In this document: positions 28,519-41,757 of the stretch, piece by piece
How positions within the stretch are numbered: the first letter of the stretch is position 1
Layout: every line of letters starts with the position of its first letter
Source: Fibrobacter intestinalis
GTDB lineage: Bacteria > Fibrobacterota > Fibrobacteria > Fibrobacterales > Fibrobacteraceae
Assembly (NCBI RefSeq): GCF_900167415.1
Contig: NZ_FUWU01000013.1
Location: 1-64,000 of the forward strand
Reading direction: 5' to 3'
Length of the DNA: 64,000 nt
Notes under the pieces: generated by a model
Seen by the model: the letters and a program-made list of their open reading frames with translations, nothing else
The model's database searches: none
What the model was told of the DNA's origin: nothing
Translations under genes and position numbers: made by a program

Positions 28519-28696
28519 AAAACCGTTCGGAAAGAACTCTTCTGTCTTTTTCCAGCCACGCACGCCAAAATCTCCGTCCCCTTTTTTCCATCATTTCCCA
28601 CAGACATAGCCCTTTGCCGCAAGGCATCGGGCGCGAGTTTAACGTTGAGTTAGCCCTTATTCTCGTTATCTATAAACCGTAATTATCAAGCTGCAA

Positions 28697-29287
28697 CTAG
28701 ATTGTCTTTAGCAGTTGTAAAAGATTCTTGTCGGAAGATTTTGTTTTTCTTGTTCCGAATTCGACAAAATGGTTCTGTGTGCAATAAAAATTCAAAAGCT
28801 TTTCGTTGTTTTCACATTCCAAAACACAAAGAACCCCGCCGACGCTGTGCTGCATAAGTAAAATCTGCTCCATTGCAAGGGACAATAGTTCATTTCCAGA
28901 AATGGAGTCGTTTAACCCTGCCTGAAAATTTTTGCCAAGTTGTGCAATCAGGTATGCGGGGATGTTGTACACACCGTCGTCATCTAATGCACTCAAACGC
29001 GAGAGCTTTTTTTGAATGGTTTTGGAAACATTTTGCGCTTTCACAGAAATAGTTTTTATAGCTAACGAGAAGTATCCCAAGAACGCTCCGTTCGCTTGCG
29101 AAAAGACCAGGTAACTTACAGCTTGATGTTTTTTGGCGAAATCTACAGACGACTTTTTCAAGAAGCACTCGACATCTTTGTTCTGGGGACATTCGTAAAA
29201 ATTTCGAAGACGGGAAAAGTCCTCTTCCATAGGAGCTTTGTCTAGATACTCCATGATGTTAACAACAAAATAGGATTTAGAAACCAT
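28697..29287 (-). CDS. GNAT acetyltransferase, probable toxin of a TA pair
   Basis: 196 aa. The GNAT-type pattern is visible: YLVFSQANGAFLGYFSLAIKTI (beta strands 3-4), IPAYLIAQLGKNFQAG (acetyl-CoA-binding loop region), LLSLAMEQILLMQHSVGGVLCVLECEN (helix and strand 5), and NFYCTQNHFVEFGT at the C-terminus. Many such proteins downstream of a 60-90 residue basic partner acetylate aminoacyl-tRNA or are presumed to. The gene overlaps the small partner gene by 11 bases. It sits beside the hsd locus. Toxicity is inferred from arrangement. Confidence 0.7.
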   Translation of the reverse strand: MVSKSYFVVNIMEYLDKAPMEEDFSRLRNFYECPQNKDVECFLKKSSVDFAKKHQAVSYLVFSQANGAFLGYFSLAIKTISVKAQNVSKTIQKKLSRLSALDDDGVYNIPAYLIAQLGKNFQAGLNDSISGNELLSLAMEQILLMQHSVGGVLCVLECENNEKLLNFYCTQNHFVEFGTRKTKSSDKNLLQLLKTI

Positions 29288-29462
29288 TTTTTTTTCTAAG
29301 GCGAGAAAGTTTTCTTAAACCGGAAACTCCGCTTAGAAAGTCTGATTTGACCTGGCTTTTGAGAGCGGGGGCCTTTAGCGAGTGATCCACGGCTTTGATG
29401 AAGGACTCAAGTTGCTTGGTCCCTGCCACGGTAAAGTTCTTTTTTATGCTCGATGTAGCCAT
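29277..29462 (-). CDS. Small basic protein, probable antitoxin or partner of the GNAT protein
   Basis: 61 aa, MATSSIKKNF ... GTKQLESFIKAVDHS followed by a basic C-terminus (SGLRKLSRLRKKNGF). Short proteins starting MATxSIxKNF and preceding a GNAT gene are, as I recall, common in gut bacteria; the class of the partner (antitoxin or DNA-binding co-factor) is not established from sequence. It has no ribbon-helix-helix signature I can fix with certainty. It overlaps the next gene by 11 bases. Confidence 0.65.
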   Translation of the reverse strand: MATSSIKKNFTVAGTKQLESFIKAVDHSLKAPALKSQVKSDFLSGVSGLRKLSRLRKKNGF

Positions 29463-29694
29463 TCTATGTATCCTCCAGCCTAATATACATTATTAAAAAA
29501 GGAACATCAAGCCAGTTATATACTTCCATCTGCCTACATGCGAAAAGGCAGAAAGTTAGTTGCCTTTTATTTGACTGAACCAATATTCACTAATATCTAA
29601 TCTCAAAAAATCCCCTTGTCAATAGGCCCGAACGTTTTTGGCATATTATGACAACCTATTTTGTTTATATTTACATTGGAATAGTTTGGCTTTT

Positions 29695-32600
29695 ATGTCC
29701 TACGAATACAGCGAAAACATACTTGTTCAGGAAAGCGCCGGCGACCTGCTCCAGCATGAGTTGAGCTGGCGTGTTGTATTTGCGTATAATGAAGAAAAAT
29801 TAGGCGAAAACGGAACATTCGGGCGCACCTCTTACAGAGAAGTTTTGTTGCATCGGTATTTTCGCGAAGCACTTCAGAAGCTGAATCCGTGGATAACGCC
29901 TACGCAAATTGACGAAGCCGTACAAAAGTTCACGGCAACCCTCAGCACGTCATCACTGCTTCAAATCAACGAAGAAAAGTACGGCTTTATTCGCGATGGC
30001 ATTCCGGTCTCTTACAAGAAACCTGATGGAACTTCGGATGTCAAGCGGGCTCTCGTCATTGATTTTTCGAACCCGGAGAACAACGATTTTCTCGCCGTCA
30101 AGGAGATGAAAATTCACGGCGAAATTTATCGCCGCCGTACCGATATAGTCGGCTTTGTCAATGGCATCCCGCTTTTGTTTGTGGAACTCAAGCGTAACGA
30201 TGTCGCTGTGCAAAACGCCTACGATGACAACTACACGGATTACCTTTCGACGATTCCGCAACTTTTCTATTACAACGCATTTTTAATGCTTTCTAATGGG
30301 GTAGAAGCGAAAGTCGGCACGCTTGGCAGTAAGTATGATTTTTTCCACGAATGGAAACGCCTCAAGGAATCCGATGCGGGTTCCGTTGCGCTCCAGACGA
30401 TGCTTCGCGGGATTTGCAAAAAAGAAACATTCCTTGACCTGTTGGCGAATTTCATTCTTTACGATCATTCCGATGGAAATACGGTCAAGATTCTCGCCCG
30501 CAACCACCAGTATCTTGGTGTAAACGAGGCATTCAAAGCGTACGAAGACCGCAAACTTCGCAATGGCAAGTTGGGCGTTTTCTGGCATACGCAGGGGAGT
30601 GGCAAAAGCTACTCAATGTTATTCTTATCGCAGAAGATTCGCCGTTGTGCAAAAGGTTCGCCCACAATCGTCATCCTTACGGACCGTGACGAACTGAACA
30701 AGCAGATTAGCGATACGTTTGAAAATTGCGGAATGCTCGGCAAGGTAAAAGCATCCAAGTTCATTGCCACGAGCGGGAACGACCTTGTCGCAAAACTCAA
30801 GGGCAATCCGAGTTTCATCTTCACGCTGATTCAAAAGTTCAACAAGAAAGATTTGACCCCGATTTATCCGGATCACGATATTTTAGTGATGTCCGACGAA
30901 GCGCACCGCAGCCAGAATGGAATTTTTGCAGACAACATGTGTGCCTTGCTTCCGACGGCTTCGCGTATCGGCTTTACGGGCACTCCGCTTTTGAAAGATG
31001 ACAACATCACCGAAAGAACTTTCGGCGGCTACATTTCTATTTACGATTTCAAGCGAGCCGTAGAAGATGGTGCGACAGTTCCGCTCTATTACGAAAATCG
31101 TGCCGACAAAATCAAGGAACTCAAAAATCCTGAAATTACGGACAAGATTCTCAATGCCATTGAAGCCGCAGACCTTGACCTGGAACAGCAAGAAAAGCTG
31201 GAAAAGGATTTTGCCAAGGAATACCACCTGCTTACGGCAGAACCGCGATTGCGTCTGGTTGCAAAAGATTTTGCACATCATTATTCAGACCTTTGGACTA
31301 GCGGCAAGGCGATGTTTGTTTGCCTGAACAAGGTGACTTGCGTTCGCATGTACAATTACGTTCAGGAATATTGGGCCGAAGAAATCGTAGCTCTCGAAAA
31401 GCAGTTGAAAATTGCAACCCAGCAAGAAGCCCAGGAACTGGACCGCAAAATCCAGTGGATGCGCGAAACGGAAATGGCGGTCGTCGTAAGCCAAGAACAG
31501 AACGAGCAACAGACTTTTGCCAAGTGGGGCTTGGACATTACTCCGCACCGCACCAAGATGGAAAAGCGAGAATTGGACAAGGAATTCAAGGACCCCAAAA
31601 ATAAATTCCGCGTTGTGTTCGTTTGTGCCATGTGGCTCACCGGTTTCGATGTCAAGTGCCTCAGTTGCCTTTACTTGGATAAACTGTTGAAAGCGCATAC
31701 GCTGATGCAGACGATTGCCCGTGCGAACCGTGTGAACGAGGGCAAGAGCAACGGCCTGATTGTGGATTATGCTGGCATCGTAAAGGCGTTGCGCAAGGCT
31801 CTCGCCGATTATACGAATAATGTAAGCGGCGGGCGTGCCGACCCGACAATCGACAAGTCGGAATTGCTGAATCGCATTATCGAAGTCATTGCGAAAACGG
31901 AAGCATTTTTAGGCGGCCTCAACGCTCCCCTTGCAAAGGTTGTTGAATCCAAGGGCTTTGATAAGATTGCCGCAATCCAAGACACCGCAAATGCAGTCTG
32001 TTCTTCGGCAGAAAACAAGAAGACCTTCTCCACATACGCCGCCGAACTTTCTCGCCTGGTACGCTACACGAACCGCGAAGACGTCACAGCCGAAAATCGC
32101 GACAAGATAAACGCGATTGACGCGGTCGCCCGCAACATGAAGGCAAAACGCCGTCATGTGACCAATGTGGATTTGATGGTGGAACTGAACAAGATTGTGA
32201 ACGAATACGTTCAGATGGACGTAGGCGGTAAAAAGAACCCCAAGCAGTTCGACATCAGCAAGATTGATTTTGAATTGCTCGGCCGGGAATTTGCCAAGGC
32301 GAAGCACAAGAACCTTTTGCTCCGCGATTTGGAAGAACTGTTAAAGGAGCGACTTTCTTTGCTGTTGGCGACCAACTCCGGCAGAATCAATTTTTATGAG
32401 CGTTACCAAGAAATCATCAATGCTTACAATAGCGAACAGGACCGTGCGACCATCGAAAAGACCTTTATGGACTTGATGGATTTGGCTTCGTCCATGGATT
32501 CCGAACAACAACGTTTTGTCCGTGAAGGTTTCAAGAACGACGAAGAACTCTCCATGTATGACTTGCTTTTCAAGGACAACTTGAGCAAGCAGGACATCAA

Positions 32601-32820
32601 AAAATTGAAAACCGTCGCCGTAGAATTGCTCGAAAAGATAAAGGCAAAAATCGAAAGTCTGGACCACTGGACCGACAAGCAAGAAACCAAGGCTGCGGTG
32701 GATACCCTCATTCGCGACACGCTCTGGAAAGAGCTGCCCGAAAGTTACGACGACGTGGCCATCAACATGTATCGCGCCCGCGTTTACGAATACGTTTACA
32801 CCCATTATAGAGTAGCATAA
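29695..32820 (+). CDS. hsdR: Type I restriction enzyme, R subunit (HsdR)
   Basis: 1041 aa from the ATG at 29695 (MSYEYSENILVQESAGDLL); an upstream TTG start is unlikely. It cuts DNA after ATP-driven translocation when the HsdMS sites are unmethylated. The nuclease domain has DIVGFVNGIPLLFVELKR (PD-(D/E)xK, about residues 147-166). The SF2 motor has HTQGSGKSYSM (near 300), DEAHRSQ (near 400), SRIGFTGTPL and a C-terminal motif VI region (MQTIARANRVNEG). The last third is the HsdM-binding helical domain. It opens a cluster of seven same-strand genes. Confidence 0.96.
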   Translation: MSYEYSENILVQESAGDLLQHELSWRVVFAYNEEKLGENGTFGRTSYREVLLHRYFREALQKLNPWITPTQIDEAVQKFTATLSTSSLLQINEEKYGFIRDGIPVSYKKPDGTSDVKRALVIDFSNPENNDFLAVKEMKIHGEIYRRRTDIVGFVNGIPLLFVELKRNDVAVQNAYDDNYTDYLSTIPQLFYYNAFLMLSNGVEAKVGTLGSKYDFFHEWKRLKESDAGSVALQTMLRGICKKETFLDLLANFILYDHSDGNTVKILARNHQYLGVNEAFKAYEDRKLRNGKLGVFWHTQGSGKSYSMLFLSQKIRRCAKGSPTIVILTDRDELNKQISDTFENCGMLGKVKASKFIATSGNDLVAKLKGNPSFIFTLIQKFNKKDLTPIYPDHDILVMSDEAHRSQNGIFADNMCALLPTASRIGFTGTPLLKDDNITERTFGGYISIYDFKRAVEDGATVPLYYENRADKIKELKNPEITDKILNAIEAADLDLEQQEKLEKDFAKEYHLLTAEPRLRLVAKDFAHHYSDLWTSGKAMFVCLNKVTCVRMYNYVQEYWAEEIVALEKQLKIATQQEAQELDRKIQWMRETEMAVVVSQEQNEQQTFAKWGLDITPHRTKMEKRELDKEFKDPKNKFRVVFVCAMWLTGFDVKCLSCLYLDKLLKAHTLMQTIARANRVNEGKSNGLIVDYAGIVKALRKALADYTNNVSGGRADPTIDKSELLNRIIEVIAKTEAFLGGLNAPLAKVVESKGFDKIAAIQDTANAVCSSAENKKTFSTYAAELSRLVRYTNREDVTAENRDKINAIDAVARNMKAKRRHVTNVDLMVELNKIVNEYVQMDVGGKKNPKQFDISKIDFELLGREFAKAKHKNLLLRDLEELLKERLSLLLATNSGRINFYERYQEIINAYNSEQDRATIEKTFMDLMDLASSMDSEQQRFVREGFKNDEELSMYDLLFKDNLSKQDIKKLKTVAVELLEKIKAKIESLDHWTDKQETKAAVDTLIRDTLWKELPESYDDVAINMYRARVYEYVYTHYRVA

Positions 32821-32857
32821 ATCTGGAGGCCCAGCGCGTATAGAAGATATTCTCGCT

Positions 32858-34354
32858 ATGGAAGAATCCCAGACTTTTGACCGCAAGAGCGTAAACATTG
32901 CTCCGAAGGATTTTTCTAACCATGTGTGCGCTTTTGCAAATGCCGACGGGGGAATCATCGTTGTCGGCATTTCTGATAAAAATCGCCGCATCGAGGGTGT
33001 TGACCATCGAGAAAAAGATGTCAATGAACTCTTGCGTGTTCCGATGGATTATTGTTCACCGACGGTTCCGTTTGCTCATGAACTTGTGGAATGCGTTGAT
33101 GCCAAAGGCAAGCCGAACCATGTGCTGGTATTCCACATAGAGGCAAGCCCCTTTGTTCACGAAAACCAGGCGCATGATGTTTATATGCGTGTGGGCGACA
33201 AGTCTAAGCTCCTTTCTTACGATGACCGTTTGACGTTGACCCTCGACAAAGGGTTGCGTTCCTTTGAAGATTTTCTTGTTCCAGACTCCAGCTACGAAGA
33301 TATAGAGGAATCTTATCTCAAAGAATACTTGAGCTTAATCGGATATTCTAAATCCCCACGAGAATATTTGCTACAGAATAAGAACTTCGCAAAAGAGAAA
33401 GAGGGCGAATTGCAACTCAGCGTTGCTGCAATCTTGCTGTTCGGCAAGAAACCCCAGTCGTTTTTCCCGAGGGCCCGAGTCAGGTTTATCCGTTACGAAG
33501 GTACAGAAGAAAAGTTCGGCACCGAGATGAATGTTATCAAGGATGTGACTTTTGAAGGTCGCATTTTGGAGCAGGTTCGTCAGGCGGTTGCCTACATCCA
33601 AACGCAGATCAAGGAACGTACCTATTTGACTGCGGGCGGAATCTTTACCACCGAACTAGAATATCCAGAATTTGTGCGTACAGAACTGGTCGTAAATGCG
33701 GTAACCCACAGGGATTATTCCATTCGCGGAACCGAAATCCAAATCAAGATGTTCGATGACCATTTGGTAGTTGAATCTCCGGGGAATTTGCCCAGTCAAG
33801 TGAAAATCAACAAGATTCGTAATTCCCACTTTGCCCGCAATTCCCATATCGCGGAATACTTGAAAGATTACAAGTACGTGAAGGATTTCGGCGAAGGTGT
33901 GGACCGTATGTGCCGGGAAATGGAAGCGCAGGGGCTGCCCAAGCCGGAATACAAACAGGACTCCTTTATTTTGAAGGCCATTATTCGAAATTCGGGTTAT
34001 GTTTTAAAAAAGGTTGACTTTGCTTCGGAAAAGGTTGACTTTAATCCTAAAAAAAGTGGCTTTTCTCCGAAAAAAGTTGACTTTGGCCCGCAAAAGCTTA
34101 ACTTTGAAAAAATGGTAGACGCTTCAACGTACAATATAACGATGAAAAGGCACATGAAGGCAATGATTGCCGAAGTTGGGTTGCAACAGGTTTTTGGAGC
34201 CAAGTATGTTGCCAATTCCCTTAAGGTTAGCAAAACTGCCGCAATCGGAATTATAAAGAAAATGTTTAGTTTGGGCGTTATAAAGCCCGTGCAAGGAAAT
34301 GGCAAAGGGAAATACATACTCAATCAAGAAACTAGCAAGGACCAAAATGGATAA
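32858..34354 (+). CDS. AlbA_2 (Schlafen-like)/GHKL ATP-binding protein with KVDF repeats
   Basis: 498 aa. N-terminal AlbA_2 domain (FDRKSVN ... FANADGGIIVVGISD), then a GHKL-type ATP-binding domain (ELVVNAVTHRDYSIRGTEI, near residue 280, and ESPGNLPSQV). Residues 385-419 are five 7-residue repeats of the form KVDFxPK. The C-terminus ends in a helix-turn-helix-like stretch (VANSLKVSKTAAIGIIKKM). Such genes are frequent inside hsd operons, role unknown. The frame stays open upstream as ARIEDILA, which looks like the usual family N-terminus but lacks ATG, GTG or TTG, so the true start is uncertain. It overlaps hsdM by 8 bases. Confidence 0.85.
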   Translation: MEESQTFDRKSVNIAPKDFSNHVCAFANADGGIIVVGISDKNRRIEGVDHREKDVNELLRVPMDYCSPTVPFAHELVECVDAKGKPNHVLVFHIEASPFVHENQAHDVYMRVGDKSKLLSYDDRLTLTLDKGLRSFEDFLVPDSSYEDIEESYLKEYLSLIGYSKSPREYLLQNKNFAKEKEGELQLSVAAILLFGKKPQSFFPRARVRFIRYEGTEEKFGTEMNVIKDVTFEGRILEQVRQAVAYIQTQIKERTYLTAGGIFTTELEYPEFVRTELVVNAVTHRDYSIRGTEIQIKMFDDHLVVESPGNLPSQVKINKIRNSHFARNSHIAEYLKDYKYVKDFGEGVDRMCREMEAQGLPKPEYKQDSFILKAIIRNSGYVLKKVDFASEKVDFNPKKSGFSPKKVDFGPQKLNFEKMVDASTYNITMKRHMKAMIAEVGLQQVFGAKYVANSLKVSKTAAIGIIKKMFSLGVIKPVQGNGKGKYILNQETSKDQNG

Positions 34355-36221
34355 CAAGAGCTTAAAGAAACTTGAAGCCGATTTGTGGGAATCTGCGGAC
34401 TTGCTCCGTGCCGATTCCAAGTTGACATCGAATCAGTATTGCATGCCTGTTTTGGGGCTTTTGTTCTTGCGTTACGCCTATGGCCGTTTCAAAAAGGTCG
34501 AAGCCGAAATTCTCAAGAACCGCCCGAGTCGCGGTGGCCGCGCTCTCCCTGTTGAACCTAGCGATTTTGCGTCCAAGAGTGCTTTGTTCCTCCCGAAAGA
34601 AGCGCAATTTGATTACCTGGTGAACTTGCCCGCAAATATTGCATCGGCAAAACTCAAGAACGCGCACGGACAGCCGCTCAACAGCCTTGGCGAAGTGGTG
34701 AACAATGCCATGGAGCTGGTGGAATCCCAGAGTGAAAAGCTGAAGGGGGTATTGCCCAAGACCTACACCGATTTCAAGGACGAACTGCTTGCCGAACTTT
34801 TGCGCACCTTCAACAACAATGCCCTCGACGATGTGGGCGGCGACGTGATGGGCCGCATCTACGAATACTTCCTCAGTAAATTTGCCAAGAATATCGCTAG
34901 CGACGATGGCGTGTTTTTTACGCCCAAGTCCTTGGTGAAAATGATCGTAAATGTGCTGGAGCCCGCTTATGGCGTGCTTTTGGACCCTGCCTGCGGAAGC
35001 GGTGGCATGTTCGTGCAGACCGGCGACTTTGTAAATGCGGCGGGCATGGCAAGCAACGAAACCATGACCTTTTACGGCCAGGAAAAGGTGGAATACAACG
35101 CCCAGCTTTGCCAGATGAACATGGCGGTGCACGGACTTACCGGTGTCGTAAAATCGGGCGACGAGGCGAACTCTTTCTATCGCGATGCGCACAACCTTGC
35201 AGGCGAATGCGATTACGTGATGGCGAACCCGCCCTTCAATGTGGATAAGGTAAAAGCGGAAAGCTGCCAGAATGCCGGGCGACTCCCCTTCGGGCTCCCT
35301 GCGGTAAACAAGGACAAGGAAATCGGCAACGGAAACTACCTGTGGATTTCTTACTTCTACAGTTACCTGAACGAAACCGGCCGCGCGGGCTTTGTGATGG
35401 CTGCCTCTGCGACAGACAGCCAGAGCAAGGACAAGGACATCCGCGAAAAGCTGGTGGCTACGGGACACGTGGATTGCATGATAAGCGTGGGCAACAACTT
35501 CTTTTATACCAAGAGCCTGCCGTGCACCCTTTGGTTCTTTGACAAGGGCAAAAAGAAGAAAATTCAGGACAAGGTCCTGTTCATCGATGCCCGCAACTAT
35601 TACACCGTCGTGGATCGCACCCTGAACGAGTGGAACGAATGGCAACTCAAGAACCTGAACGCCATTGTTTGGCTCTACCGCGGCGAAACGGACAAGTATG
35701 AATACTTGCTTGTGGAATACCGCAACGCCTTGCTTGCCTACGCCGACACCACCGAAGACAAACAACTCGAAAAGATTCTCCGCAAGTCCGCAAAGATTGC
35801 AAAAATATTCGCGGAACTCAAGGAACACCGCGAGACGCTCCGTGTGCAGACGAAAATCGCCGTAGAAGCCGCCGACAAAAAGAGCAAGAAGAAAACCCAG
35901 GAAGAATGGGACGCCCGCCTTGCGGAACTCGACGAAATCATCGGAATCGCCAAGGAAGCCGACTGGCTCTACGAAAAATTCGGTGACGGCAAGTACAAGG
36001 ATATTCTTGGGCTCTGCAAAATTGCCTCCCGTGCCGAAATCGCCGAAAAGAACTACAGCCTGACCCCTGGCGCATACGTCGGAGTCGCCCCTGTAGAAGA
36101 TGACGGCGTAAATTTTGCTGAACGCATGACCGAAATCCACGCGGAACTCCTGAAACTCCAGGACGAAAGCAATACGCTCATGAAGACCATCTCCAAGAAC
36201 ATGAAGGAACTCGGCTTGTGA
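34347..36221 (+). CDS. hsdM: Type I DNA methyltransferase, M subunit (HsdM)
   Basis: 624 aa from the ATG at 34347. N6-adenine methyltransferase of the type I complex; it uses S-adenosylmethionine to protect the sites chosen by HsdS. It has the N-terminal HsdM helical domain (LESADLLRADSKL-type start, here EADLWESADLLRADSKL), the AdoMet motif LDPACGSGGMFV (near residue 211), the catalytic NPPF (near 294), and a Lys/Glu-rich helical C-terminal extension (DKKSKKKTQEEWDARLAEL). It overlaps the AlbA_2 gene and is followed after 90 bases by the DUF4143 ATPase. Confidence 0.96.
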   Translation: MDNKSLKKLEADLWESADLLRADSKLTSNQYCMPVLGLLFLRYAYGRFKKVEAEILKNRPSRGGRALPVEPSDFASKSALFLPKEAQFDYLVNLPANIASAKLKNAHGQPLNSLGEVVNNAMELVESQSEKLKGVLPKTYTDFKDELLAELLRTFNNNALDDVGGDVMGRIYEYFLSKFAKNIASDDGVFFTPKSLVKMIVNVLEPAYGVLLDPACGSGGMFVQTGDFVNAAGMASNETMTFYGQEKVEYNAQLCQMNMAVHGLTGVVKSGDEANSFYRDAHNLAGECDYVMANPPFNVDKVKAESCQNAGRLPFGLPAVNKDKEIGNGNYLWISYFYSYLNETGRAGFVMAASATDSQSKDKDIREKLVATGHVDCMISVGNNFFYTKSLPCTLWFFDKGKKKKIQDKVLFIDARNYYTVVDRTLNEWNEWQLKNLNAIVWLYRGETDKYEYLLVEYRNALLAYADTTEDKQLEKILRKSAKIAKIFAELKEHRETLRVQTKIAVEAADKKSKKKTQEEWDARLAELDEIIGIAKEADWLYEKFGDGKYKDILGLCKIASRAEIAEKNYSLTPGAYVGVAPVEDDGVNFAERMTEIHAELLKLQDESNTLMKTISKNMKELGL

Positions 36222-36311
36222 GAAAATGGAAAAACGGGCAAAAATATTGTAAAAATAGTTGGAAAAACGGACAAAATTAGTTATTTTAAGGTTGGATAAA
36301 CGGAAAAACTG

Positions 36312-37736
36312 ATGATTCAACGTAAAATCGACAACTATTTGGCTGATTTCTATGCAAAGCACAAGAACGCGTTGCTTGTGACCGGTGCCAGGCAAATCGG
36401 CAAGACCAGTTCCATTCGGGAGTTCGGAAGGACGCATTTCAAGCGTTTTGTAGAAATCAACTTCCTTGAATCTCCGTCTGCCAAGTCCGTATTCGAGGGT
36501 GCCAATAGCTCGAACATCCTTTTACGCCTGTCGGCCTACGCCGAAACAAAATTGGTCAAGGGCGAAACCCTGATTTTCTTGGACGAGATCCAGGAATGCC
36601 CCGATGCGGTTACCGCAATCAAGTTTCTGGTCGAGGACGGGTCTTACCGTTATATTCTGAGCGGTTCGCTTCTTGGTGTTGAACTCAAGGACATCCGTTC
36701 CCTTCCTGTCGGTTTTTTGACCATCAAGGAAATGTTCCCTCTGGATTTTGAGGAGTTTGCAAGGGCGGTGGGCGTTCAGGCCGAGGTCCTGGATTCGGTA
36801 CGAGCCGCTTTCGAGAACAAGGTGGAAGTTGATTCTGTCATCCACGAAAAAATGATGGAGATTTTCCGCCTATACATGGTTGTGGGCGGCATGCCCGCTG
36901 CAGTTGCCGAGTATCTGGAATCGAATAACATCCAAAACATATTGGAAATCCAGCAAGGCATCATCGAGTTGTACAAGAAGGACATTGCCAAGTACGACCC
37001 AGAAAACAAACTTTACCTGAACGAAATTTTCGACCTGATCCCGCCGGAACTGAATAACCAGAACAAGAGATTCATTCTAAAAAAATTGAACGAGAATATC
37101 AAATTTTCCCGTCATGAAAATTCCTTTATCTGGTTGAAAGAAGCAGGGGTGGCTCTTCCCGTTTACAATGTAGATGAACCTAAAATCCCCTTGCTCCTTT
37201 CGCGTTCGCGCAACTTGTTTAAGCTGTTCTTGAACGATGTCGGACTCCTTACTTGCCAATACGCGAACGGAATACAACTGAAAATCTTGAATGGTGAAAA
37301 CGCCATCAATTTCGGTTCCGTTTATGAAAACGTGGCTGCAATGGAATTGAGAGCGCACGGATTTGACCTTTATTATTTCAATAGCAAAAAACAAGGCGAA
37401 CTAGATTTTGTCATTGAACGGAATGGGCGTGTTCTCCCCATAGAAATCAAGTCGGGCAAAGATTACAAACGACACAATGCCTTAAAAAATGCCTTGGAAA
37501 CGGTAAATTACGCCATTCAGGAAGCCGTCGTTTTCTGCAACGATAATGTTTGTGTCAAAGAAAAAGTCTTGTATTGCCCCATATACATGCTGATGTTCCT
37601 GGAAAATGAAAAAATTAATTTAGGAACATACAAAGTAAATTTACGCGGACTGACCGAACATGCCAACCACGGCAAATCAAAGCGAAGAAATAAGAGTGGA
37701 GTAAAAGAACCTTCCAATGCGTCATTGCGAGCGTAG
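36312..37736 (+). CDS. AAA ATPase with DUF4143 domain
   Basis: 474 aa. Walker A GARQIGKTSS (near residues 24-33), Walker B LIFLDEIQE (near 91), then the winged-helix and the C-terminal DUF4143 part with ELDFVIERNGRVLPIEIKSG, a PD-(D/E)xK-like nuclease fold motif. Proteins of this family are widespread and often near restriction or mobile genes; their substrate is unknown. It splits hsdM from hsdS. The last residues (SNASLRA) and the stop codon are supplied by a dispersed CGTCATTGCGAGCG repeat, so the original C-terminus was probably altered. Confidence 0.88.
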   Translation: MIQRKIDNYLADFYAKHKNALLVTGARQIGKTSSIREFGRTHFKRFVEINFLESPSAKSVFEGANSSNILLRLSAYAETKLVKGETLIFLDEIQECPDAVTAIKFLVEDGSYRYILSGSLLGVELKDIRSLPVGFLTIKEMFPLDFEEFARAVGVQAEVLDSVRAAFENKVEVDSVIHEKMMEIFRLYMVVGGMPAAVAEYLESNNIQNILEIQQGIIELYKKDIAKYDPENKLYLNEIFDLIPPELNNQNKRFILKKLNENIKFSRHENSFIWLKEAGVALPVYNVDEPKIPLLLSRSRNLFKLFLNDVGLLTCQYANGIQLKILNGENAINFGSVYENVAAMELRAHGFDLYYFNSKKQGELDFVIERNGRVLPIEIKSGKDYKRHNALKNALETVNYAIQEAVVFCNDNVCVKEKVLYCPIYMLMFLENEKINLGTYKVNLRGLTEHANHGKSKRRNKSGVKEPSNASLRA

Positions 37737-37984
37737 CGAAGCAATAATCTAAAAAGGATTTAAGATGGCTTGGGAAAAAGCATTTTTAGATGAAATGTCG
37801 TGTCATTCTGAGCGAAATCGAAGGATCTATCGTCGCTGTCATTCCCGACTTGATCGGGAATCTTCTAACACGTCATTGCACAAAGTGCATGACTGGTTCG
37901 CCTCGGCAATAGAAATGCAGGCATTTCTGCTGCTCTCGGCTCCCACGTCATTGCGAGGGCGAAGCCCGTGGCAATCCAAGGAGG
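37720..37984. repeat. Mosaic of dispersed repeats between DUF4143 gene and hsdS
   Basis: In order: GCGTCATTGCGAGCGTAGCGAAGCAAT (37720-37746), GTCATTCTGAGCGAAATCGA (from 37801), GTCATTCCCGACTTGATCGGGAA (from 37838), CGTCATTGCACAAAGTGCATGAC and CGTCATTGCGAGGGCGAAGCCCGTGGCAATCC (to 37979). At 37765 ATGGCTTGGGAAAAAG precedes this, a near copy of the hsdS start. Confidence 0.8.
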
Positions 37985-37994
37985 ATGTTTTCTG

Positions 37995-39155
37995 ATGGCT
38001 TGGCAGAAAGTGAAATTAGGCGATATTGCAATTGTTACATCGAGCAAAAGATTTCATTTGTCAGAAAGAAGTGATTCTGGTGTTCCCTTTTATTGTTCAA
38101 AGCAGATTATTCAAAAAGTCAGAGGGGAACTTGTCTCGGACTACGACTATATTCGTGAAGAATTTTACGAAAACGTAAAGAAGCAATATGGAGTTCCAGA
38201 ACCAGGTGATTTGTTGATAACCACACGTGGCTCATATGGAGTTCCTTATATTTATAAAGACAACGATAAATTTTACTTTGCAGATGGAAATTTGACATGG
38301 TTGAAGGATTTCAAAGAAGACATTGATGTTAGATTTCTTTATTATTGGATTTGTTCATATGAAGGTCAAAAGAAAATAGATGCTATAGCAAAGGGGACCG
38401 CTCAAAAAGCCGTAACGATAGATGGTATAAAAAATTTAGAGATTTCTGTTCCGTCTTTTAAAACGCAAAAACGCATTGCCGACATCCTTTCCGCCTACGA
38501 CGACCTGATTGAAAACAACCAGAAGCAAATAAAACTCCTCGAAGAAGCCGCCCAACGCCTCTACAAACAATGGTTCATCGACCTCCGCTACCCCGGCCAC
38601 GAAACCACCAAAATCGTAGATGGATTACCCAAAGGATGGAGAAAAGGAATTGTCGGTGAAATTGCTGAATTCAAACGAGGAAAAGTTATTACGAAGGCAC
38701 AAGTCGCCGAAGGAAATGTCCCTGTTGTAGCTGGAGGATTAGAACCCGCATATTACCATAATACGGCTAATACAACTGCCCCCGTTATTACAGTAAGTGG
38801 CTCTGGAGCGAATGCAGGTTTTGCTCAACTCTACAATGAAAATGTCTTTGCTTCGGACTGCTCTTTCGCTGACATAAATACAACCCCGTATGTGTATTTT
38901 GTCTATTGCCTTTTAAAAGACAAGAAAACTGAACTTGACTCCCTTCAAAAGGGTGCTGCGCAACCCCATGTCTATGCAAAGGATATCAATGCCCTTGCAA
39001 CATTGATTCCGCCTGAAGAGATGTTGAAACTTTATACAAAGTATGCATCTCCATATTTTGAAAAAATCAAGGCCTTAAAGGAACAAATTAAGAATTTAAC
39101 CCAATCCCGCGATCGTTTACTACCTAAACTCATGAATGGGGAATTGGATGTATAA
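37995..39155 (+). CDS. hsdS: Type I specificity subunit (HsdS)
   Basis: 386 aa from the ATG at 37995, with AAGGAGG 12 bases upstream. Two target-recognition domains (about residues 1-150 and 210-340), each followed by a conserved helical spacer: KTQKRIADILSAYDDLIENN ... RLYKQWFIDLRYPG in the middle and KIKALKEQIKNLTQSRDRLLPKLMNGEL at the end. Each domain reads one half of the bipartite DNA target. The recognition sequence cannot be predicted. Both recognition domains are AT-rich while the central conserved segment is not, which points to domain exchange. Confidence 0.94.
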   Translation: MAWQKVKLGDIAIVTSSKRFHLSERSDSGVPFYCSKQIIQKVRGELVSDYDYIREEFYENVKKQYGVPEPGDLLITTRGSYGVPYIYKDNDKFYFADGNLTWLKDFKEDIDVRFLYYWICSYEGQKKIDAIAKGTAQKAVTIDGIKNLEISVPSFKTQKRIADILSAYDDLIENNQKQIKLLEEAAQRLYKQWFIDLRYPGHETTKIVDGLPKGWRKGIVGEIAEFKRGKVITKAQVAEGNVPVVAGGLEPAYYHNTANTTAPVITVSGSGANAGFAQLYNENVFASDCSFADINTTPYVYFVYCLLKDKKTELDSLQKGAAQPHVYAKDINALATLIPPEEMLKLYTKYASPYFEKIKALKEQIKNLTQSRDRLLPKLMNGELDV

Positions 39156-39156
39156 C

Positions 39157-40377
39157 ATGGAAAACGAAATACTAAAAGAAATAATAAAATGGATTGTCAA
39201 TAATAAGGAATGGCTTTTTTCAGGATTAGGAATCATTATATTGGGGGGAGTCGTAAAAAAATTCTTTTTCAAAAATGAACCAACGTTGATTCATAAACAA
39301 AATGTGTCGGAAAATGGAATGGCCGTTCAAGCCGGCAGAGATGTAATTATAGGCATAGATGAAAAAAGAGCTAGAGAAATTAATGCCGAATCGCTAGCCA
39401 TTGCAAAAAAGGATTTCTCGTATGAAGCAGAGCAAAAAGTAGCGGATCGAGTACAAAAACTTGAAGATCGGGTAATGCCACGGTTATATCGTATTGAGGG
39501 GGCTTTACAAAATTTTGCAGACCCCTCGTTTCAAGTTTTCTTGACAAAAGCGAATAAAGCTGCTGCATGCACGGATCGAGAGTCTGATTATGATTTATTA
39601 TCAGAATTACTAATTCACCGAATAGAAAAGAAGGATTCAAGGAAAGATCAAATTGGATTAAATAAAGCCGTTGAAATTGTTGACCAAATAACGGATGAAG
39701 CATTGAGCGGATTGACTATATTCTTTGCGGTATCACAGTATAGTCCTGTGGCTGGCTTCCTAGATCAGGGACTTTCAATATTGGATAATCTATATAACAA
39801 ATTGCCACTAACGAATTTACCTGTTAGCAAGGATTGGTTAGAAGAACTTGATGTGTTGGATGCCGTTCGAGTATCTTCCATGGGAACATTAAAAAAGTTA
39901 GAGCAATATTGGTCTGAAAAATTTACGGGATTTGTGACTGCCGGGATAAAGAAGAATGGAGATAAATGGAATGACATCTCAAATATGTTAAACAATTGTG
40001 GCTTATCAGCAAATTTTTTAATCACCAATACATTATTGGATGATTATGTTTTGATTCCTGTAGTTGATGAAAATGCCATAGATTCTTTTGTGCAAACAAG
40101 AATTGTCGTTCCTGAAGGGAGGATGGACTTTTGTCCATTTTCCGACGAACAAAAACAAGTCCTGCATCAAATCTTTTCAATGTATGATAAGTCACCAGAT
40201 TTGTTGAATAAAGTGAAAAATGCTTTTGTAGAAAAACTTGATTCTTTTGAAGCCATCAAAACAGTGAGACTTTGGTGGAATTCGATCCCTCATGCAATCA
40301 CAGTTACCGCTGTTGGCCGTGTGTTAGCCCATGCGAACGCCAAAAGATGCGACCCGTCAATACCGAATTTGAATTAA
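39157..40377 (+). CDS. Membrane-anchored protein linked to type I RM (LPO_1073/Vpar_1526-like)
   Basis: 406 aa from the ATG one base after the hsdS stop. One N-terminal transmembrane helix (about residues 19-35, EWLFSGLGIIILGGVV), then KQNVSENGMAVQAGRDVIIG, a linker type seen in membrane-tethered defence proteins, a coiled coil (SYEAEQKVADRVQKLEDRV), and an all-alpha soluble domain of about 300 residues. It resembles the uncharacterised LPO_1073/Vpar_1526 family as I recall it, without proof. The gene is AT-rich compared with hsdM. With the DAC-like gene 10 bases downstream it may form a signalling module; whether it responds to a nucleotide is inference. Confidence 0.7.
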   Translation: MENEILKEIIKWIVNNKEWLFSGLGIIILGGVVKKFFFKNEPTLIHKQNVSENGMAVQAGRDVIIGIDEKRAREINAESLAIAKKDFSYEAEQKVADRVQKLEDRVMPRLYRIEGALQNFADPSFQVFLTKANKAAACTDRESDYDLLSELLIHRIEKKDSRKDQIGLNKAVEIVDQITDEALSGLTIFFAVSQYSPVAGFLDQGLSILDNLYNKLPLTNLPVSKDWLEELDVLDAVRVSSMGTLKKLEQYWSEKFTGFVTAGIKKNGDKWNDISNMLNNCGLSANFLITNTLLDDYVLIPVVDENAIDSFVQTRIVVPEGRMDFCPFSDEQKQVLHQIFSMYDKSPDLLNKVKNAFVEKLDSFEAIKTVRLWWNSIPHAITVTAVGRVLAHANAKRCDPSIPNLN

Positions 40378-40387
40378 AGGAGAATAT

Positions 40388-41644
40388 ATGGATGCAAAAA
40401 CAAAAAAGATTGAGCAACAGTTTGAAAAAATAATTGTTGAGTATATACTTCCTTTATTTCCTGGGGCAGAAATAGCTGAAAAGAATGAAGTAAAAGCTCC
40501 ACCCAAAGGACAAAAACATTGTTCTATTCTTCAAGGAAATACTTTTTTGGCCATAAGAAAGGAGTTATCTTCTTTCCCAATTATCATTAAGCGGCATCAA
40601 CCCTTTACCGGTGAAGATTCTGGAATTGTAGAATCATTTGTAGCAATGATATGTAAATTTCAAAAGTCGGAAAAAATAGGAATACTGTATCAAGATGTGA
40701 TTGCTAAAAGATGTTTGGAAATGAGCATCTTTAATACCTTGTCTCAAGGCTATCCGAAAGTCTTGTTTTATGTAACGAACATTCTTTATTATTGGCAAAA
40801 TAGAACATATGAAGGAAATAAAGTTGCTCTGTCTATAAAAATTAAAAATGCAACTCTAAATTGTAATGATGGGAAAAAACTTGTAGAGAAAGAAAAACTT
40901 TATGAGCAGGATTTTTTTGCTTCCATAACTAATGGAATAAGCGACTGTATTGAAATAGATGAAAATCTTGATATAATTGGATATAAAGAACTAAAAAAAT
41001 CATCTAATGTCAATGCTTACGCACCTATTAAATTTATAGACTTTTGCGATTCATCGCGAGACTCCATTATACTAGCACTGACTAGAGCGAATGAAATACT
41101 TTGTTTCTCTAAAGGTGCTTTAAAATTGGCCAAACGAGGTAATCTTTGGACTCTTTATCAACACGATGCTGCAATAAAGCAATTAGCTGGTGGAAAGAAA
41201 AATTTAATTCCTATAAAAATACGAACTGCTTTGTATCAGACAGCCCTTGATGTCAGTTTTTCGAAAACTGGAGGATTGCTGGTATGCATTGATAAGAAAA
41301 AGTTAAGTGACGCATCTGTAACAGAAGTATTCAAAGATGATGATTTGCGAACATCAACAAAAGAACGTAATGAAGTTTTTAAAAGTATTGTTGCTAATCA
41401 AAAATTTCAGGATTTGCCAAGAACATTACGAGCAGAATTAGCCGCAATCGATGGTTCACTTATTATTGATACTGATGGAAACGTTTTGGCAATAGGTGCG
41501 ATTGTTAAACTGAATGGCGGAAGTTCTTCTGGCGGGCGAAAAGCAGCAACATTGGTGCTTTCCCATTTTGGCCTTGCAATTAAAATCTCAAATGATTCAT
41601 ATATAGAAGGCTATATGGATGAAAACCTTCTATGCAAAATTTAA
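40388..41644 (+). CDS. Protein with C-terminal DisA/DAC-like (diadenylate cyclase) domain
   Basis: 418 aa, AAGGAG site before the ATG. Residues 1 to about 270 are an unrecognised, probably sensor, region. From about 277, IRTALYQTALDVSFSKTGGLLVCID fits the first helix and strand of a DAC domain; D355-G356-S357 (AAIDGSLIID) stands where the family has DGA, and GGRKAATLVLSHFG (R384) where it has RHRAA. The order and spacing match DisA-type cyclases, which make c-di-AMP from two ATP. The motifs are degenerate, so altered product or loss of activity is possible. AT-rich, last gene of the hsd-linked cluster. Confidence 0.7.
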   Translation: MDAKTKKIEQQFEKIIVEYILPLFPGAEIAEKNEVKAPPKGQKHCSILQGNTFLAIRKELSSFPIIIKRHQPFTGEDSGIVESFVAMICKFQKSEKIGILYQDVIAKRCLEMSIFNTLSQGYPKVLFYVTNILYYWQNRTYEGNKVALSIKIKNATLNCNDGKKLVEKEKLYEQDFFASITNGISDCIEIDENLDIIGYKELKKSSNVNAYAPIKFIDFCDSSRDSIILALTRANEILCFSKGALKLAKRGNLWTLYQHDAAIKQLAGGKKNLIPIKIRTALYQTALDVSFSKTGGLLVCIDKKKLSDASVTEVFKDDDLRTSTKERNEVFKSIVANQKFQDLPRTLRAELAAIDGSLIIDTDGNVLAIGAIVKLNGGSSSGGRKAATLVLSHFGLAIKISNDSYIEGYMDENLLCKI

Positions 41645-41736
41645 CAACTTGTTGGGAGAGAATTTTCTATGTCGCCTAGGTCGGACTAATTCAACTAAGA
41701 AATCAATTTTTCTGTTGGAAAAAGTGAACCACTTTA

Positions 41737-41754
41737 CTCGCTAACCTTAGCGAG
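41737..41754. terminator. Perfect stem without strong T-run, weak terminator candidate
   Basis: CTCGCTAA-CC-TTAGCGAG lies between the convergent DAC-like gene and gtrA-like gene. No U-tract of more than three follows on either strand, so termination is uncertain. Confidence 0.35.
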
Positions 41755-41757
41755 AAA

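Follow-up and report, generated by a model that had tools for sequence, protein, structure and literature searches.

Introduction

The described systems that come closest to the locus treated here join nucleotide signalling to phage defence. DS-2 is a variant of CBASS that has been validated by experiment, and mutating the predicted catalytic residues of its diadenylate cyclase (DAC) abolishes defence (PMC13092281). The RHR motif is lost in this DAC, with RYNS in its place; in DacA of Mycobacterium tuberculosis, replacement of RHR by AAA abolishes both ATP binding and activity (PMC3328451). In Panoptes, a dinucleotide made constitutively holds a Cap15-like effector off, and the system thereby detects phage anti-CBASS proteins (PMC12657218, PMC12657230). 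Validation of DACs in phage defence is recent (DS-2) and has come with CBASS only. Among the papers searched, none joins diadenylate cyclase, type I restriction and defence; an earlier mention in the Galperin 2023 survey of DACs is possible.

Here we describe P0004, a protein of 418 aa encoded behind the hsdS gene of a restriction cluster in Fibrobacter intestinalis. The DNA analysed, which we call the window, is a 64,000-nucleotide stretch of contig NZ_FUWU01000013.1. An earlier note on it had suggested that P0004 and the membrane protein encoded just upstream, P0005, could form a cyclase-effector pair, a signalling module held in reserve for cases in which restriction has failed or is inhibited. 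Relatives of P0004 recur in restriction operons and beside CBASS, which suggests that the protein is probably a nucleotide-handling add-on for phage defence. From our analysis its most likely role would be that of a nucleotide-signal synthase serving as a defence accessory, that of a dead nucleotide sensor being nearly as likely.

Collection of relatives

Relatives of P0004 were gathered from plasmids, from 84,980 genomes, from a sample of 385 alphaproteobacterial genomes and from viral contigs. There are 26 in total, found via conserved peptide patterns; alignment-based search of the 84,980 genomes gave 20 loci, and the viral contigs gave two relatives. A pattern search of genome contigs with P0004 as the single protein returned nothing, neither the protein nor the profile matched any sequence in the PDB, and a viral fold search was likewise empty. 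P0004 alone has no meaningful match in Pfam, PADLOC or PHROG, and its best match in NCBIfam is the DS-2 model NF053872 at 12.7 bits (cut-off 630). The family is rare and mobile, and lies outside current curated models. Linkage counts given below refer to the 25 relatives with an informative neighbourhood, as collected with one set of conserved peptide patterns and one class sample.

The defence island and its restriction cluster

A defence island of 13.2 kb (28519..41757) is inserted between sufS on one side and a GtrA-like gene and an amidohydrolase gene on the other. Four genomes of the same genus (G141, G142, G143 and G144) have the empty site, with a gap of 417-430 bp from sufS to the amidohydrolase gene; in a fifth (G140) the same hsd backbone adjoins sufS. 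The restriction genes of the window all lie on the forward strand. They are hsdR (29638..32820; PADLOC REase_I, E=1.1e-160), the gene of a Schlafen/AlbA_2 - RecG-C protein that is part of the hsd backbone (32858..34354; Pfam PF04326, E=1.6e-19, and PF13749), hsdM for the methyltransferase (34299..36221; Pfam N6_Mtase, E=9e-73, and HsdM_N) and hsdS for the specificity subunit (37968..39155; Pfam Methylase_S, E=3.8e-28). With hsdR, hsdM and hsdS clustered in this way, the restriction cluster itself is an ordinary type I system. Between hsdM and hsdS is a gene for an AAA_14/DUF4143 ATPase (36312..37736; PADLOC candidate PDC-S01, E=5e-200), present in the window copy of the island only. A gene of the AlbA_2/RecG-C type is also found within the hsd operon of one locus bearing a P0004 relative (L018).

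The hsdR-AlbA_2-hsdM backbone is 96-99% identical across species (window 29638-39155; L085, L084, L087), with AlbA_2 partly truncated in L084. From hsdS onward the copies differ throughout, and hsdS and the cargo slot appear to have been exchanged together among them. Comparison of G140 with the window gives the same 96-99% identity for hsdR, AlbA_2 and hsdM, 52% for hsdS, and entirely different genes behind hsdS; the slot behind hsdS therefore holds exchangeable cargo. Composition shifts along the cluster, from a GC content of 47-52% in hsdR and hsdM to 39.7% in hsdS, 36.6% in P0005 and 33.3% in P0004, against 49.2% for the whole window, in line with the AT-richness noted earlier for the last two genes.

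In the window both ORFs behind hsdS are intact. The hsdS stop at 39155 is followed 1 bp on by the start of P0005 (39157..40377, forward strand), and P0004 (40388..41644, forward strand) begins after a further gap of 10 bp, with an AGGAG site before it. P0005 belongs to the LPO_1073/Vpar_1526 family (NCBIfam NF045477, E=1.1e-28, 100.5 bits with a cut-off of 45), which is named and uncharacterised. By hydropathy its sole hydrophobic segment is an N-terminal membrane helix at residues 19-38 (39211-39270, forward strand), as the earlier note had it. G105 and G117 carry the closest relatives of P0005 (64% identical). In G105 the gene follows the hsdS of the same backbone, and in G117 it has an hsdS nearby; each time another member of the family stands in tandem with it and there is no DAC gene. 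These relatives lack the membrane helix, which is optional within the family. Searches of plasmids and of viral contigs returned no relative of P0005.

These data bear directly on the proposed pair. P0005 and P0004 are neighbours separated by 10 bp, and other membrane proteins are encoded directly upstream of the DAC gene in L020 (SLATT_5) and L071, which makes exchangeable effectors conceivable. However, the flanks fetched for 23 DAC relatives, of up to 8 kb, contain no homologue of P0005, and P0005 relatives occur without a DAC and without the helix. Homologues lacking the membrane partner are the outcome that the earlier note had itself named as refuting its proposal. On these grounds we reject the pair: P0005 is not the partner of P0004 and occupies the hsdS slot as cargo in its own right, and a cyclase-effector pair responding to failed restriction is highly improbable.

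Two Fibrobacter-group defence islands carry long and short LPO_1073-family genes in tandem near hsdS (L057:5028-6977 and L058:5389-7335), those of L058 adjoining an HATPase gene. Such tandems are possibly a two-protein defence unit of their own.

Fold and pocket of P0004

P0004 can be divided into an N-terminal region with no recognised fold according to the secondary structure of its model (residues 1-117; 40388..40738), a degenerate DAC-like domain 1 (residues 118-268; 40739..41191) and a DAC domain 2 with a conserved, altered pocket (residues 269-418; 41192..41641), all on the forward strand. HHalign relates the C-terminal domain (residues 265-418) to the canonical CdaA of Fibrobacter relatives at E=2e-5 over 108 columns, and domain 2 more closely to the DS-2-type DAC domain (E=4e-6). 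The Pfam DAC model PF02457 is matched by five of the 21 aligned relatives (best E=2.3e-5) and, in one relative, at E=7.6e-4; P0004 itself does not reach it at the Pfam cut-off. An AlphaFold2 model built with 21 sequences has a pLDDT of 85 and a pTM of 0.87, and Foldseek gives DACs for its top 18 PDB fold matches, all with probability 1.00. The DAC fold with altered catalytic motifs that had been read from the letters of P0004 is thereby upheld, with only DACs at the top of the structural search.

The same order of helices and strands occurs twice in the model. Folded alone, residues 118-268 reach a pLDDT of 82, and their top eight PDB fold matches are all DAC chains (probability 0.91-0.99, E 6e-3 to 4e-2), after which come unrelated proteins at a probability of 0.16 or less. 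Judged from these models, domain 1 is a second, sequence-degenerate DAC fold, one that sequence profiles alone did not detect. The supposed 270-residue N-terminal sensor of the earlier note thus contains a degenerate DAC that had been missed, and about 117 residues remain before it. We also compared domain 1 with the Pfam domain DACNH; HHalign gave no support for homology (E=0.07), and only the YEG motif is in common. DACNH, named as a sensor domain, shares YEG with the DAC-fold domain 1 (L008:6015-7772, L060-L068) and may itself be a degenerate DAC domain; HHalign gave this no support.

Three motifs mark the pocket of domain 2, the first two at the positions where they had been placed before. 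The DGA motif is represented by DGS (residues 355-357; 41450..41458), and its Asp and Gly are kept as DG(A/S/T) in 27/27 aligned sequences. In the place of GTRHRAA stands GGRKAA (residues 382-387; 41531..41548), G(G/A)RxxA in the family, in which the first Arg stays and the His and second Arg are gone. In the place of VSEE stands KISND (residues 399-403; 41582..41596), K(I/V)SxD in the family. Its Lys, Ser and Asp do not vary, and the position of the SEE Glu is taken by N, A, Q or E; this applies to the full-length relatives, the plasmid copy L003 being truncated at this site. All three are on the forward strand. Of the 150 columns of domain 2, 21 are invariant; the figure for domain 1 is 7 of 151, and for the N-terminal region 1 of 117. 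D355, R384, K399, S401 and D403 are fixed across a family with about 28% identity. As far as the alignment goes, two acids and two bases held constant would fit a retained ligand or catalytic site in domain 2.

RHR is reduced to R-x-A in the family, within GGR(K/T/L)AA, which together with the DacA result (PMC3328451) makes ordinary c-di-AMP synthesis doubtful: P0004 has the fold of a DAC and, lacking RHR, falls outside the canonical diadenylate cyclases. The same genome also encodes a canonical CdaA as a separate protein. We also considered a split active site, with a conserved RH supplied by domain 1, and rejected it; RH (as CPWRH) is found only in a subset of relatives, mostly from Alphaproteobacteria, and not in the window.

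It is quite possible, and we take the prospect seriously, that P0004 is a dead DAC which, by binding a nucleotide in domain 2, would sense for or switch the defence system linked to it; the signal might be, for example, c-di-AMP, the level of ATP or dNTPs, or a nucleotide pool altered by phage. The His and second Arg of RHR and the conserved SEE Glu are lost while other pocket residues are invariant, domain 1 has already degenerated, some relatives are in pure restriction operons with no adjoining effector, and the CdaA of the same genome can supply c-di-AMP. Yet the sister DAC of DS-2, which lacks RHR as well, depends on its predicted catalytic residues for defence, and two invariant acids with two invariant bases exceed the needs of a simple ligand site.

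Genomic neighbourhoods of the relatives

The attachment to defence genes suggested by the window proved to be recurrent. Four of the 25 relatives are in type I restriction operons, usually directly after hsdS, and the window is a fifth case; the hosts are Alphaproteobacteria, a deltaproteobacterial/Myxococcota MAG and Fibrobacter. Gene order is hsdM-hsdS-DAC-hsdR in L016 and L073 (the latter from the independent sample of 385 Alphaproteobacteria), hsdM-hsdS-DAC-AlbA_2-hsdR in L018, and hsdS-DAC-hsdR in L019, whose contig starts at that point. In L016 and L019 the stop codon of hsdS and the start codon of the DAC gene share an ATGA, which suggests translational coupling of the two genes; about 1 kb separates them in L073. 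No nucleotide effector adjoins the DAC gene in L016, L019 or L073. On the tree, the restriction linkage requires four changes, at least three of them forced by well-supported branches; the branch of the window protein is long.

Nine of the 25 are at most 4 kb from a CD-NTase gene (L002, L008, L010, L013, L015, L017, L022, L023 and L024), and genes for Cap15-like cyclic-dinucleotide receptors are found with seven of these nine. Several such CBASS loci exceed a minimal CBASS by one synthase-like and one Cap15-like gene. The order on one strand in L013 and L015 is Cap15-like, patatin, CdnE, DAC. These two loci (L013:5425-9242 and L015:5437-9254) combine two effector types (Cap15-like and patatin) with two synthase-like genes (CdnE and the tandem DAC), and L008:4087-9209 has patatin, CdnE, a DACNG/DACNH protein and a tandem-DAC protein, that is, two DAC families in one CBASS locus. 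On a viral (prophage) contig, L071:6949-9017, the gene immediately before that of a divergent tandem-DAC protein encodes a hydrophobic protein of 223 aa, and the other strand carries a KAP NTPase gene.

The remaining neighbourhoods include ten relatives with no adjoining recognised defence system, six of them Hymenobacter genes among housekeeping neighbours. These ten, the GC content of P0004 (33%) and the variation of the slot after hsdS among sister strains that share a nearly identical backbone would all suit a mobile orphan that lands in whatever defence island or cargo slot is at hand and is functionally unconnected with the restriction system. Against such a passenger, separate lineages have the DAC gene set inside the operon, between hsdS and hsdR and with the ATGA overlap, and two types of system are linked to it far more often than by chance. 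The 18 host genomes, 88.8 Mb in all, hold eight PF21654 CD-NTases, of which four adjoin a gene of the P0004 family where 0.017 would be expected by chance, and HsdM is beside such a gene twice where 0.019 would be expected. We therefore regard mere passage as unlikely.

A possible role in defence

Fold, tandem arrangement, conserved altered pocket, mobility and recurrent linkage are the properties of the P0004 family that we regard as established. The reading that we prefer, with somewhat less than even confidence, takes the family as undescribed, rare, horizontally moving tandem DAC-fold proteins that are defence accessories and whose domain 2 is a nucleotide synthase. In such a protein, the degenerate domain 1 would probably pack on domain 2, so that a single chain would reproduce the head-to-head dimer of canonical DACs. 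Domain 2 most likely would keep a metal-dependent nucleotide chemistry, and its product may be a dinucleotide, cyclic or linear, distinct from ordinary c-di-AMP or under different regulation. In CBASS loci the messenger might act on, or restrain, membrane effectors (Cap15-like, patatin), as can be compared with OptS in Panoptes and the DAC in DS-2; in type I restriction operons, a DAC made together with HsdS could give the locus a second guard, one based on signalling.

Several observations speak against the preferred reading: RHR is only R-x-A and the SEE Glu is not conserved, RHR being essential in DacA (PMC3328451), the restriction loci L016, L019 and L073 are those with no adjoining nucleotide effector, and six Hymenobacter relatives are found among housekeeping genes.

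A bolder form of the preferred synthase reading, which we consider rather doubtful, is that nucleotide signalling is built into some type I restriction systems as an additional arm, in which a tandem DAC co-translated with HsdS would make a non-canonical dinucleotide and so guard the locus or trigger a second response to a phage that overcomes restriction. CBASS would share the module, there coupled to Cap15-like effectors in what would amount to a Panoptes built on a DAC. If true, the P0004 family would link restriction with nucleotide signalling. The arrangement hsdM-hsdS-DAC-hsdR would then offer a small, cloneable system for direct tests, and the hsdS slots of restriction loci would be worth mining for signalling cargo.

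Comparison with known systems

With canonical DACs (CdaA, DisA and CdaM/DacM; PF02457) P0004 has in common the DAC fold and the position of the DGA motif. It differs from them in having two DAC folds per chain and altered RHR and SEE motifs, and has neither the DNA-binding part of DisA nor the membrane part of CdaA.

Panoptes (OptSE) is resembled by the CBASS loci that carry the P0004 family, in that these loci have an extra synthase-like gene together with an effector of the Cap15/S-2TM-beta type. The synthase of Panoptes is an mCpol, whereas the synthase-like fold of the P0004 family is a DAC, and no ORF of the window is Cap15-like or S-2TM-beta; P0004 is not Panoptes.

The DAC of DS-2 (NF053872; DACNG-DACNH-DAC, PMC13092281) has the closest C-terminal DAC domain of those compared. 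It and the P0004 family both have lost RHR, have YEG before the DAC domain and are found beside CBASS. P0004 is nevertheless not DS-2. The window has no CBASS, and neither a CD-NTase nor a patatin, the genes to which DS-2 is linked, is among its ORFs. Proteins of the P0004 family are shorter (about 420 aa), neither P0004 nor its relatives match the Pfam domains DACNG or DACNH, and the family has GGRxAA and KxSxD where the DS-2 DAC has G(S/A)RYNS and SED(D/G). Unlike DS-2, the P0004 family also resides in type I restriction operons.
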